64,000 nucleotides of DNA from Micromonospora peucetia (GTDB taxonomy: Bacteria; Actinomycetota; Actinomycetes; Mycobacteriales; Micromonosporaceae), in NCBI RefSeq assembly GCF_900091625.1, contig NZ_FMIC01000002.1:6014001-6078000 (forward strand), in the 5' to 3' direction. Below the pieces are notes generated by a model. It made no database searches, had not been told where the DNA came from, and saw only the letters and a list, made by a program, of their open reading frames with translations. A program made the position numbers and the translations under genes. Shown piece by piece: positions 41,017 through 43,586 of the stretch. Every line of letters starts with the position of its first letter. Position 1 is the first letter of the stretch.

Positions 41017-42189
41017 TCAGCTCACCTCGGCGAGCAGTCCGTCGACGAGGTCGCGCGGCAGCCCGTGGGTGTCGTGCAGGTCCCGGTAGTCCTCGTCGGT
41101 CAGCGGCCCCCGGGACCGGCGTCGGGAGACCACCGGCCGCCCGCGCCGCAGCAACTCCCGGAACCGCCGCTCCTCGCCGGAGAACACGTCGCGCACCTCG
41201 TCAACGGTGCCGGGCTGCCCAAACCCGTCGAGGGTGTGCCGCACCGCGCCGGTCGGCAGGTCGGACAGGGTCCGGGAGGCGTCGTCGCGCCACAGCGTGG
41301 TGAGCGCCCGGCGCAACAGCCGGCGCAGCACGTAGCCGCGGCCGGTGTTCGACGGTCGTACGCCGTCACCGATGACCACCACGCTCGCCCGCAGGTGATC
41401 GGCGACCAGGCGCAGCGACCCGTCCCGCAGACCCCACCCGCCGGAGACGCCGCGTACCCACGGCACGAGACCCGCACCCTCGAAGACCGAGCGGTGCCCG
41501 CCCAGCACCATCTCCAGCCGTTCGAGACCCATCCCGGTGTCCACGTTGGGCTGCCGCAGCGGCGACAGCCGGCCGTCGGGGTGCCGGTGGTGGCGCATCC
41601 CGACGTGGTTCCAGACCTCCATCCACCGGCTGTCGGTGCCGGGGGTGCCCAGGGGCGGGCCGTCGCCGGTCCAGACGAAGATCTCCGTGTCGGGTCCGCA
41701 CGGCCCGGTCGGGCCGTTGGACCACCAGTTCTCCGCCCCGGTCAGCTCCACGGGCAGGCCCAGCTCGTTCCAGGTACGCAGCGACGGCTCGTCCGGGCCG
41801 ACCTGCTCGTCGCCGCCGAAGACCGTCACGTGCATCCGGTCGTGGTCGATGCCGAAGCCGTCGCGCAGCAGTTCGTAGCCCCAGCGCAGGCTGCGCGGCA
41901 GGTCGTAGTCGCCCAACGACCAGGAACCCAGCATCCGGAACAGGGTCAGGTGGGTGCAGTCGCCGACCTCGTCCAGGTCGGTGGTGCGCAGGCAGCGCTG
42001 CACGTTCACCAGCCGTCGGCCCAGCGGGTGGGGCCGCCCCTCCAGATAGGGGGTCAGCGGGTGCATCCCGGAGGTGGTGAAGAGCACCGGGTCGCCCGGC
42101 GGCGGGATCAGGGAGCCGTCGGACACGAGTTCGTGGCCGCGTTCACGGAAGAAGTCGAGGAAGGTTCGGCTGATCGGGTCGTACGTCAT
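41017..42189 (-). CDS. Stand-alone alanyl-tRNA synthetase-like protein (catalytic half)
   Basis: This 390-residue protein matches the class II catalytic core and part of the tRNA-recognition region of AlaRS: LFTTSGMHPLTPYLEG, VQRCLRTTDLDEVGDCTHLT, FRMLGSWSLGDYDLPRSL, motif 3 MGLERLEMVLGG and RPSNTGRGYVLRRLLRRAL. The editing domain and C-Ala domain of the normal 870-900 residue enzyme are absent, so it cannot clear mischarged Ser or Gly. It may charge tRNA, form an alanyl-adenylate for another acceptor, or serve as an inhibitor-resistant paralogue. The ATG at 42189 follows GGAAAGG, which is buried in a hairpin downstream of an Ala-rich leader. Confidence 0.88.
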   Translation of the reverse strand: MTYDPISRTFLDFFRERGHELVSDGSLIPPPGDPVLFTTSGMHPLTPYLEGRPHPLGRRLVNVQRCLRTTDLDEVGDCTHLTLFRMLGSWSLGDYDLPRSLRWGYELLRDGFGIDHDRMHVTVFGGDEQVGPDEPSLRTWNELGLPVELTGAENWWSNGPTGPCGPDTEIFVWTGDGPPLGTPGTDSRWMEVWNHVGMRHHRHPDGRLSPLRQPNVDTGMGLERLEMVLGGHRSVFEGAGLVPWVRGVSGGWGLRDGSLRLVADHLRASVVVIGDGVRPSNTGRGYVLRRLLRRALTTLWRDDASRTLSDLPTGAVRHTLDGFGQPGTVDEVRDVFSGEERRFRELLRRGRPVVSRRRSRGPLTDEDYRDLHDTHGLPRDLVDGLLAEVS

Positions 42190-42303
42190 GGTGGTGGCCT
42201 TTCCGGGTGGAGCGACCGGAAGGTCCGCCGCCGGGGACCGGCGGGGCTGACGCGACGAGAGAGCCGGCGGACCGTTTCCGGTCGCCGGCGGGAGATGGTG
42301 AGG
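42190..42303 (-). promoter_or_regulatory. Attenuator-like leader region of the AlaRS paralogue
   Basis: On the transcript (minus strand) a hairpin masks the ribosome binding site: CCUUCCGG (42216-42223) pairs with CCGGAAAGG (42198-42206), one bulge, 9-nt loop. An upstream hairpin (arms 42263-42274 and 42279-42289) contains CGACCGGAA (42276-42284), which is fully complementary to the UUCCGGUCG at 42213-42221 that builds the masking hairpin. The two pairings exclude each other. A third hairpin lies at 42228-42244. This is the layout of a translational attenuator responding to ribosome position on the leader peptide. Confidence 0.6.
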
Positions 42304-42372
42304 TCAGGCGGCGACGACCGACGAGCGCGAAGCTCGTGCGGCCGCGGCGGCAAAGAAACGCCTGATCTCCAT
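42304..42372 (-). CDS. Alanine-rich leader peptide upstream of the AlaRS paralogue
   Basis: A 22-residue frame starts at ATG 42372 and reads MEIRRFFAAAAARAS followed by a short Ser/Val segment and Ala-Ala stop. Eight of 22 residues are Ala, five in a row (GCC GCC GCG GCC GCA). GGGGG lies 1-2 nt before the ATG, with a possible -10 TACAGT on the minus strand at 42385-42380. It lies 114 bp before the AlaRS-like start, with competing hairpins between. Ribosome stalling on the Ala codons when charged tRNA-Ala is scarce would be the simplest signal. It is a prediction from composition and position. Confidence 0.6.
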   Translation of the reverse strand: MEIRRFFAAAAARASRSSVVAA

Positions 42373-42395
42373 GCCCCCGACTGTACGCACACGTC

Positions 42396-42434
42396 GGCGC
42401 CGCCGCCCAGCGCGTTTTCGCGGGCGGCGGCGCC
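42396..42434 (-). terminator. Hairpin terminator of the desaturase gene
   Basis: Perfect 13-bp arms at 42396-42408 and 42422-42434, with an inner CGCG-TTTT-CGCG stem, lie 9 bp after the desaturase stop. It separates the desaturase transcript from the leader/AlaRS transcript. Confidence 0.75.
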
Positions 42435-42443
42435 GGGACGGGC

Positions 42444-43586
42444 TCAGGCGCCCGCGGACACGAGGGCCGGGGTGGGACGGTCGTCGGCGCGCTGGGGCGT
42501 CTTGCGGTTCGGCAGTGAGAGCCGGAACACCTTCCGCCACGCGGAGAGGACCTGCCGGGGCAGTGAGCCGGTGGTGTACTTCAGCCCGTAGCGGTCGAAC
42601 AGCGCCCGCACCTCGGGGGCGACCTCCTGGTAGCGGTTGCTGGGCAGGTCCGGGAAGAGGTGGTGCTCGATCTGGTACGACAGGTTGCCGGTCATGATGT
42701 GCATCAGCCGGCTGCCGCTGATGTTGGCCGAGCCGAGCATCTGCCGCAGGTACCAGTCGCCGCGGGTCTCGCCCTCGATCGAACGCCTGGAGAAGGTCTC
42801 CACGCCCTCCGGGAAGTGCCCGCACATGATCACCGAGTGGCTCCACAGGTTGCGCAGGAGGTTGGCGGTGAAGGTGGCGGCGAGCGTGTGCAGGAACGAC
42901 GGTCCGGACAGCAGCGGGTGCAGCACGTAGTCCTTGAGCACCTGCCGGCGGATCTTGCGGCCGACCGCCTTGGCGCGGGCCCGGAACTCCGGCTTCTTGT
43001 GCCGGCCCTTGCGCAGGTTGCGCCCCAGCTCCAGGTCGTACGCGGCGATGCCGTACTCGAAGAAGCAGGCGTTGATGAAGTTCCACAGCGGCTGGCCCAG
43101 GTGGAACGGGTGCCACCGCTGGTCCTCGTCGACCCGCATGATGCCGTAGCCGAGGTCGTTGTCCTTGCCGATGACGTTGGTGTACGTGTGGTGCAGCTCG
43201 TTGTGCGAGTGCTTCCACTGGTCGGCCGGCGAGACGTGGTCCCACTCCCAGGTGGTGGAGTGGATCTTCGGGTCGCGCATCCAGTCCCACTGGCCGTGCA
43301 GGACGTTGTGGCCGACCTCCATGTTCTCCAGGATCTTGGCCACGGTCAGGCCGGCCGTGCCGACGATCCAGGCGGGCGGGAACAGGGAGAACAGCAGCAC
43401 CACCCGGCTGCCCACCTCCAGCTTGCGCTGCGTCGAGATGACCCTGCGGATGTACGCGGCGTCCCGCTCGCCCCGGTCGGCGACCACCCGGGCGCGGATC
43501 GCGTCCAGTTCCTTGCCGATGGTCTCGATGTCCTCGGCACTGAGGTGGGCGATCGGGTTGACGGGCTTGTTCTGGATCGTGGTCAC
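42444..43586 (-). CDS. Acyl-lipid/acyl-CoA fatty acid desaturase (DesA3-like)
   Basis: This 380-residue membrane di-iron desaturase has all three His boxes: HNVLHG, HNELHHTYTN and QIEHHLFPD. Four hydrophobic helices surround them. It introduces a double bond into long acyl chains with O2 and electrons from a reductase, acting at the membrane. The neighbouring ferredoxin reductase, read 15 bp upstream on the same strand, is its likely electron donor, as in the mycobacterial DesA3 pair. The GTG start at 43586 has GGGAGCACCTGAC upstream. A terminator follows the stop. Confidence 0.93.
   Translation of the reverse strand: MTTIQNKPVNPIAHLSAEDIETIGKELDAIRARVVADRGERDAAYIRRVISTQRKLEVGSRVVLLFSLFPPAWIVGTAGLTVAKILENMEVGHNVLHGQWDWMRDPKIHSTTWEWDHVSPADQWKHSHNELHHTYTNVIGKDNDLGYGIMRVDEDQRWHPFHLGQPLWNFINACFFEYGIAAYDLELGRNLRKGRHKKPEFRARAKAVGRKIRRQVLKDYVLHPLLSGPSFLHTLAATFTANLLRNLWSHSVIMCGHFPEGVETFSRRSIEGETRGDWYLRQMLGSANISGSRLMHIMTGNLSYQIEHHLFPDLPSNRYQEVAPEVRALFDRYGLKYTTGSLPRQVLSAWRKVFRLSLPNRKTPQRADDRPTPALVSAGA

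Follow-up and report, generated by a model that had tools for sequence, protein, structure and literature searches.

A small alanine-rich reading frame in Micromonospora peucetia is probably the leader of a ribosome-mediated attenuator of the trp type, which would sense charged tRNA-Ala and control an auxiliary, alanine-poor alanyl-tRNA synthetase (AlaRS), AlaS2. The locus lies within the 64,000-nucleotide stretch of DNA that was analysed (the window). On the minus strand, read 5' to 3', it consists of a fatty-acid desaturase gene (end at 42444), a 22-codon ORF (42304..42372), a 114-nt spacer and an AlaRS-like gene of the alaS2 type (41017..42189), whose 390-residue frame starts with an ATG at 42189. 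The leader encodes MEIRRFFAAAAARASRSSVVAA followed by a stop codon, and 8 of its codons specify Ala, five of them consecutively (42337..42351). The initial annotation of this DNA had described the same layout, and all of its coordinates are correct.

The 390-aa protein matches Pfam PF01411 over positions 2-407 of 552 (E 1.9e-79) and AlaRS structures in the PDB with E values down to 1.6e-63. The matched portion is the catalytic half of AlaRS, that is, its catalytic and first tRNA-recognition part. The C-terminus falls right after the motif DTHGLPRDL, leaving no editing or C-terminal domain, and the three AlaRS models of NCBIfam that the protein touches all score below the curated cut-off. Since the same genome also encodes a normal, full-length alaS (892 aa from its likely start), the shorter gene is a paralogue. 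It has no fixed operon partner: neighbours common to several loci were confined either to Micromonospora (9 of 27 loci at most) or to a single group of Streptomyces (5 of 27), and the desaturase is found again upstream of alaS2 in 8 of the 27 loci, all from Micromonospora. Other AlaRS genes were also seen. Two full-length copies (L192 and G017:C14:106928-109531) are present in a single genus-sample genome, G017, and Actinomadura long AlaRS proteins (847-880 aa stop to stop; L051-L053, L059, L066, L067, L070-L072, L077) share 36-38% identity with AlaS2 and are possibly another auxiliary AlaRS.

AlaS2 contains very little of the amino acid that it would handle. Alanine makes up on average 2.3% of 87 distinct AlaS2 proteins, is present at 8 of 390 positions in the window copy, and is missing altogether from 12 of the 87 (L003, L019, L024, L111, L113, L117, L126, L127, L130, L132, L133 and L135); as the starts were set by a script, these counts may shift by 1-2 residues. 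The canonical AlaRS of the genus (n=19) has 9.9% Ala in the matching part and 12.4% in the whole protein. Of the 50 more distant AlaRS relatives, 20 were examined; all are longer than AlaS2 (590-948 aa from stop to stop), and Ala makes up 4.2-9.9% of the corresponding region. The loss is not accounted for by base composition, because Gly, Arg and Pro, which have GC-rich codons, are raised in AlaS2. Lysine is almost missing as well (0.2% versus 2.9% in canonical AlaRS).

The residues expected of an active enzyme are largely retained. Motif 2 and the Asn of the alanine pocket are kept in 99 of 99 sequences, and the DTGxGxER motif, which includes the pocket Asp, is kept by pattern in 94 of 99, the other five being unread. 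Two further positions, located through the PDB alignment ranges, are the Asn and the Asp taken to read the G3:U70 pair of tRNA-Ala. Of the 99 sequences, 75 keep the Asn and 87 the Asp, 14 and 9 have a replacement, and 10 and 3 are unread. Judged by these residues, AlaS2 likely charges tRNA-Ala. Within motif 2 the window copy has Arg (FRMLG) where the other AlaS2 sequences shown have Glu (FEMLG) and its own canonical AlaRS has Gln.

To follow the leader beyond the window, relatives were defined as AlaS2 loci of at least 55% identity. These comprised 28 of the 78 loci of a first similarity search, 36 of 121 genus-sample genomes, 12 of 394 class-sample genomes and 34 of 150 family-sample genomes; the samples overlap, and the sequence at nine further places, for which no locus was yet available, was retrieved as well. 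The remaining 50 of the 78 loci, more distant AlaRS matches, were kept out of the leader analysis. Pooling gave 101 loci including duplicates (the window copy is present twice), or 89 distinct leader regions. Records from the first search came from Micromonospora, Streptomyces, Nocardia, Nonomuraea, Umezawaea, Occultella and Jidongwangia. A leader of the form ...AA[A/T]A-R-A-xx-S-x-V-A-A-A-stop, with variations, precedes the gene in all 101 loci. An Arg codon, CGA (42334-42336, minus strand, in the window), follows the Ala run in 89 of 89 leaders, and relative to this codon Ala is found at codons -3, -1 and +1 in 88, 87 and 89 of the 89, the sole miss at -3 falling outside the start chosen by the script. 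CGA accounts for only about 4% of Arg codons in alaS2 genes, and the leader CGA belongs to hairpin P1 (see below); besides that role, the invariant codon may slow ribosomes.

The nucleotide variation within the leader distinguishes selection on the peptide from selection on the RNA. At six mostly-Ala sites of 70 leaders, the entropy of codon positions 1, 2 and 3 averages 0.11, 0.29 and 0.77 bits, so that the third base is the most variable. Across all leader codons the values are 0.67, 0.49 and 0.54 bits, and the third position is not the most variable. This confinement of third-base variability to the Ala codons points to selection on alanine there, with the RNA shaping the remaining codons. 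The five consecutive Ala codons are the presumed sensor.

The leader is closely tied to alaS2. A covariance model (R1) of the leader and its first hairpin was built from 61 of these leaders, which it recovers by construction. In the genus sample it matched 36 of 122 genomes, the same 36 that have the paralogue, once each, and no others. Matches in the class sample numbered 13 of 394 genomes. Twelve of these are the genomes that have the paralogue. The thirteenth, G156 (42.1 bits), lacks an AlaS2 beside the match, tblastn over its 3.1-kb locus reaching E 1.2 at best, and we take this match as chance. With a Streptomyces alaS2 copy as the query, 73 of 343 genomes of that genus were found, and all 30 loci read have the leader. 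With the published leader peptide AlaL these leaders share a conserved C-terminus, A-x-A-R-A-x-x-S-x-x-A-A, and a position in front of an AlaRS gene. In two loci (L218 and L229) the exact published AlaL peptide of S. lividans precedes the short paralogue, so AlaL belongs to that gene.

The RNA between promoter and gene is strongly structured. The 231-nt leader folds with z = -2.94, which 0 of 200 shuffles equalled, and an Rfam scan of the window gave no family at the gathering score, whether T-box or other curated leader. Four pairings compete on the minus strand. Hairpin P1 (42311..42348), inside the leader ORF, joins the Ala run, which makes up most of its 5' strand, to the SxVAA codons. Nine nucleotides of these codons (S0, 42312..42320) can instead pair with S1 (42279..42287), the 5' arm of P2, and so act as an anti-P2 segment. 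P2 itself (42263..42289) is a GC-rich hairpin, mostly with a GAAA loop, that resembles a terminator in some relatives. In the fourth, S3 (42216..42223, CCTTCCGG), an anti-Shine-Dalgarno strand, pairs with S4 (42198..42206, CCGGAAAGG), which contains the Shine-Dalgarno (SD) sequence GAAAGG (42203-42198). The set has the hallmark of an attenuator, with mutually exclusive hairpins 1:2, 2:3 and 3:4 and the control codons on strand 1. The initial annotation had mentioned neither the complementarity of the SxVAA codons to the 5' arm of P2 nor the role of the Ala codons as one strand of a hairpin.

Conservation of the pairings was measured in 70 representative leaders (alignment A1), to which the 89 regions were reduced by way of 88 on omission of L152 (no gene start), L151 (too long) and near-duplicates; nine of the 70 are omitted from the R1 alignment (A2). 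For S0:S1, 95.4% of cells pair, with two-sided changes at 4 pairs (11 cells); 0 of 500 shuffles matched the pairing level and 1 of 500 had as many two-sided pairs. For P2 the pairing is 94.8%, with two-sided changes at 3 pairs (7 cells), and 0 and 16 of 500 shuffles did as well. When the partner was slid by one column, S0:S1 gave 3 and P2 gave 5 two-sided pairs, at 43% and 33% pairing. The count for P2 thus exceeds the real one, so two-sided counts alone are weak and the weight is on the pairing percentages. The five pairs of the P1 core, CGAGC/GCUCG, form in 66-70 of the 70 leaders and a sixth pair in only 17; P1 showed no covariation in this set, its core hardly varying. Alignment of homologous leaders, the check suggested in the initial annotation, thus shows both the Ala run and the complementary segments to be conserved.

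The energies place these structures in a definite order. In the window copy S0:S1 has -16.7 and P2 -21.6 kcal/mol, and the means are -24.8 (P1 region), -16.2 (S0:S1) and -21.9 kcal/mol (P2). In equilibrium folds of 88 leaders the SD was not released with the leader codons free (opening 7.48 versus 7.77 kcal/mol), and it stayed closed in all modelled equilibrium states. In 53 of 88 leaders the SD opened at a lower cost in the stalled state than in the termination state; the difference was at least 1 kcal/mol in this direction in 21 and in the opposite direction in 16. By summed helix energies the ON set is less stable than the OFF set by a median of 3.7 kcal/mol, and it equals or beats the OFF set in 12 of 88. 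The equilibrium SD test and the summed helix energies both count against a purely thermodynamic switch. With P2 stronger than S0:S1 at equilibrium and the SD always closed, any switch must be kinetic. In the trp attenuator of E. coli the terminator is likewise stronger than the antiterminator; as the energies have the same order there, failure to switch at equilibrium is not fatal to the attenuator reading.

A kinetic switch was modelled with a transcription intermediate in which the RNA ends at the P2 loop and either the Ala run and the ribosome footprint are masked or the leader is free. The expected number of S0:S1 pairs in this model rises from 0.42 with the leader free to 8.6 with the Ala run masked, and at least six pairs are formed in 69 of 70 masked leaders versus 2 of 70 free ones. 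The few pairs in the free leader result from P1, which holds S0. A shuffled S0 gives 4.6 pairs, and 0 of 20 shuffles reached the real value in 46 of 70 leaders. Fewer than two pairs when free together with at least seven when masked were obtained in 61 of 70 leaders (which are related by descent and do not count as 70 independent tests) versus 333 of 1050 controls (32%) in which the same peptide was encoded by randomised codons. The 4.6 pairs of shuffled S0 and the third of controls that switch reflect the ease with which GC-rich RNA pairs. On the pairing percentages and these models, the better-supported switch would be that between the leader hairpin, the duplex of SxVAA with the 5' arm of P2, and the GAAA hairpin, rather than the 9-nt pairing described next.

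The initial annotation had drawn attention to the hairpin around the ribosome-binding site and to a 9-nt match of its 5' arm with the upstream hairpin (42213-42221 with 42276-42284). The SD hairpin is real: GAAAGG lies inside the CCTTCCGG/CCGGAAAGG pairing and is closed more than expected by chance, with a mean opening cost of 9.1 kcal/mol versus 6.1 with shuffled spacers in 67 leaders (three of the 70 have too short a spacer for this and the duplex test). For 25 of these leaders, no more than 1 of 30 shuffles was as closed. Pairing of the P2 loop and segment S2 with S3, needed for SD release, reaches 79.5%, with pair counts not above those of shuffles. The 9-nt match is perfect in the window and conserved among the relatives: for this pairing, S1:S3, 89.7% of cells pair in the 70 leaders, with two-sided changes at 4 pairs (6 cells). 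On these measures 32, 19 and 28 of 500 shuffles did as well. The S1:S3 duplex is only modestly more stable than shuffles (mean Z -0.93), at most 3 of 60 shuffles being better in 15 of 67 leaders.

These observations bear on the reading first given to the locus, a purely translational attenuation in which stalling would make the 5' arm of P2 available to the anti-SD strand, so that the two would pair and the SD would be freed, P2 being no terminator. The perfect and conserved match and the sequestered SD fit this reading, as does the window copy, in which no terminator-like T tract was found after P2. Against it, when the Ala run is occupied S0 takes S1 first, the duplex itself is little above chance, and the SD is not released at equilibrium. 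We regard it as unlikely as an account of the main switch. What stands of the initial interpretation is a leader of Ala codons with competing structures before an AlaRS paralogue, and what does not is the 9-nt pairing as the central element; the SD hairpin and that pairing probably form a second layer of the attenuator.

Directly after P2, the T content at the first four positions is 0.53, 0.30, 0.40 and 0.41, versus 0.17 from the leader stop to the gene start, and tracts of 6-7 T follow P2 in three of the 70 leaders (L127, L138 and L139), in which P2 would by its shape be an intrinsic terminator. The output could thus be termination at P2, a translation block by S3:S4, or both.

Upstream of the leader, the window has a predicted promoter of the WblC/WhiB7 type. 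On the minus strand it reads GAAAAC (42414..42419), gcg, CTGGGC (42405-42410, a -35-like hexamer), 19 nt, and TACAGT (42380..42385, the -10 element). This corresponds to the arrangement given in the available text of PMC7157823, GAAAWY 3 nt before the -35 and 16-19 nt from there to TANNNT; the -35 motif of that source, TKGMNN, described there as less conserved, is not matched by CTGGGC. In 95 of 101 loci a hexamer of the form TAnnnT or CAnnnT has its end 6-7 nt before the leader start; the count is partly circular, since hexamers of this kind guided the script in its choice among in-frame starts. GAAAWY with at most one mismatch is found about 30-35 nt upstream of the -10 in 53 of 88 leaders (L145, with too little upstream sequence, being omitted) versus 1.7% in shuffles, and a sharp A-rich island 31-34 nt 5' of the -10 coincides with the place of the WblC box in PMC7157823, as far as its available text describes it. 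The genome of the window also encodes a WhiB7-like protein (L189, with a WhiB domain and an RGRP AT-hook, one of six WhiB matches). For most WblC-activated genes the start sites are located 7-8 bp past the -10 (PMC7157823, in the portion available), and this spacing predicts a transcript starting at 42373/42372, the leader mRNA being leaderless. As far as the sequence tells, the transcript would include the whole leader, and a start downstream of it, named in the initial annotation as evidence against its reading, is not what the -10 predicts.

The same source, in the portion available, describes alaS2 of S. coelicolor (SCO7600) as WblC- and tetracycline-dependent and alaS (SCO1501) as not. 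The window gene is probably orthologous to SCO7600 and of the alaS2 type, a conclusion drawn from the name and the link to AlaL. Such induction by tetracycline through WblC, along with the conserved C-terminal residues of the leader, would also suit an arrest peptide on which ribosomes are halted, regardless of Ala-tRNA, by the inhibitors associated with the WblC regulon, the Ala codons serving only the nascent chain or the RNA. We consider this improbable, since strict Ala codons with free third bases here precede a synthetase for alanine, the protein itself avoids alanine, and the WblC promoter can account for the reported induction. Direct regulation through binding of AlaS2 or canonical AlaRS to the leader hairpins, the ORF being incidental, would fit the very strong conservation of P1 and P2 nucleotides, including the invariant CGA, but is most improbable given the third-base freedom at the Ala codons, the fixed distance from the start to the -10 and the retained stop codon.

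We therefore return to attenuation by charged tRNA-Ala, for which the following sequence of events can be envisaged. The WblC/WhiB7-type promoter would give rise to a leaderless transcript starting at the start codon of the leader. As long as no ribosome is bound, the Ala codons would pair with SxVAA in P1, and P2 would form. When Ala-tRNA is ample, a ribosome would reach the stop codon and cover SxVAA, so that P2 would again form and the gene would be off, through termination at P2 and/or retention of the SD in its hairpin. Under a shortage of Ala-tRNA, the ribosome would wait on the Ala run and open P1, and SxVAA would pair with the 5' arm of P2. With P2 blocked, its freed loop and 3' arm could pair with the anti-SD strand, turning the gene on, and AlaS2 would then charge tRNA-Ala. 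Having little or no alanine of its own, AlaS2 could be made during the shortage.

On balance we lean towards the view that this circuit as a whole resolves a catch-22 in a self-consistent way. A backup AlaRS purged of alanine would be turned on when ribosomes stall for want of Ala-tRNA, and it would belong to the antibiotic-response regulon of WblC. In several lineages the enzyme has zero Ala among about 390 residues versus about 12% in the canonical AlaRS of the host. If the proposal is true, AlaS2 would be an emergency synthetase free of its cognate residue and paired with a fitting sensor, a principle that may extend to other auxiliary synthetases. A synthetase with almost none of its cognate amino acid provides a clean test, set up by nature, of whether genes used in starvation avoid scarce residues. 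The arrangement is found across many soil actinomycetes, in which the spare AlaRS looks like an emergency enzyme. Through its strict link to this gene the leader can serve to mark auxiliary AlaRS genes, and the link also suggests that a shortage of Ala-tRNA, or inhibitors of AlaRS such as ascamycin-like compounds, are a recurrent hazard in soil.

A close parallel is trpS (SCO3334) of S. coelicolor, whose product TrpRS1, according to work by Vecchione and Sello, is reportedly an auxiliary TrpRS under ribosome-mediated transcriptional attenuation, and which we take to be the indolmycin-resistant copy. As in the arrangement proposed for alaS2, a leader-peptide attenuator would precede an auxiliary synthetase that is activated by WblC; unlike alaS2, it concerns Trp and a known drug. 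It is listed among the WblC-activated genes in the accessible part of PMC7157823, and indolmycin resistance in connection with an auxiliary TrpRS is cited in PMC9437257, likewise as far as its accessible text goes.

For alanine, AlaL (SLIV_01313) was listed from RNA-seq upstream of alaS (SLIV_01315) in S. lividans TK24, as a type that was then new (PMC8079986, available text). It is of the same peptide family as the window leader (ATARATSSPVAAA, then stop). In its available text that paper deals with one peptide and contains no competing structures, no other species and no designation of the gene as a short, alanine-poor paralogue. The alaS2 gene of S. coelicolor (SCO7600) is also that of an auxiliary AlaRS and has a GAAAWY box before a TANNNT -10, and the main text of PMC7157823, in the form available, contains neither the word 'leader' nor anything on alanine content. 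Taken together, the annotation of AlaL and the regulon entry of alaS2 become a testable circuit of sensor, RNA switch and an enzyme that fits the stress.

In ascamycin biosynthesis, AcmF is truncated and AlaRS-like, and AcmD is an extra AlaRS that is more resistant to ascamycin (PMC12945691, available portion). The description of AcmF given there sets it apart, its active site being changed (N219Q, D232E), whereas AlaS2 keeps the Asn and Asp. The leaders described for Actinobacteria in the available text of PMC1262725 are those for Trp, Cys, Leu and ilvB, with T-boxes for ileS, and the word alanine is absent from that text. Low cognate bias, the avoidance by enzymes of a biosynthetic pathway of their own amino acid, was described by Fasani and Savageau (PMC4209129, available text). 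It is known there for biosynthetic pathways; here it affects a tRNA synthetase and goes down to zero alanine. The literature searched, which included few subscription papers, held no report on the RNA switch, on AlaL outside S. lividans or on an alanine-free enzyme. Compared with these systems, what is new here is the combination of a cognate-poor enzyme and a WblC-type promoter in a probable alanine version of the attenuators of auxiliary synthetases.
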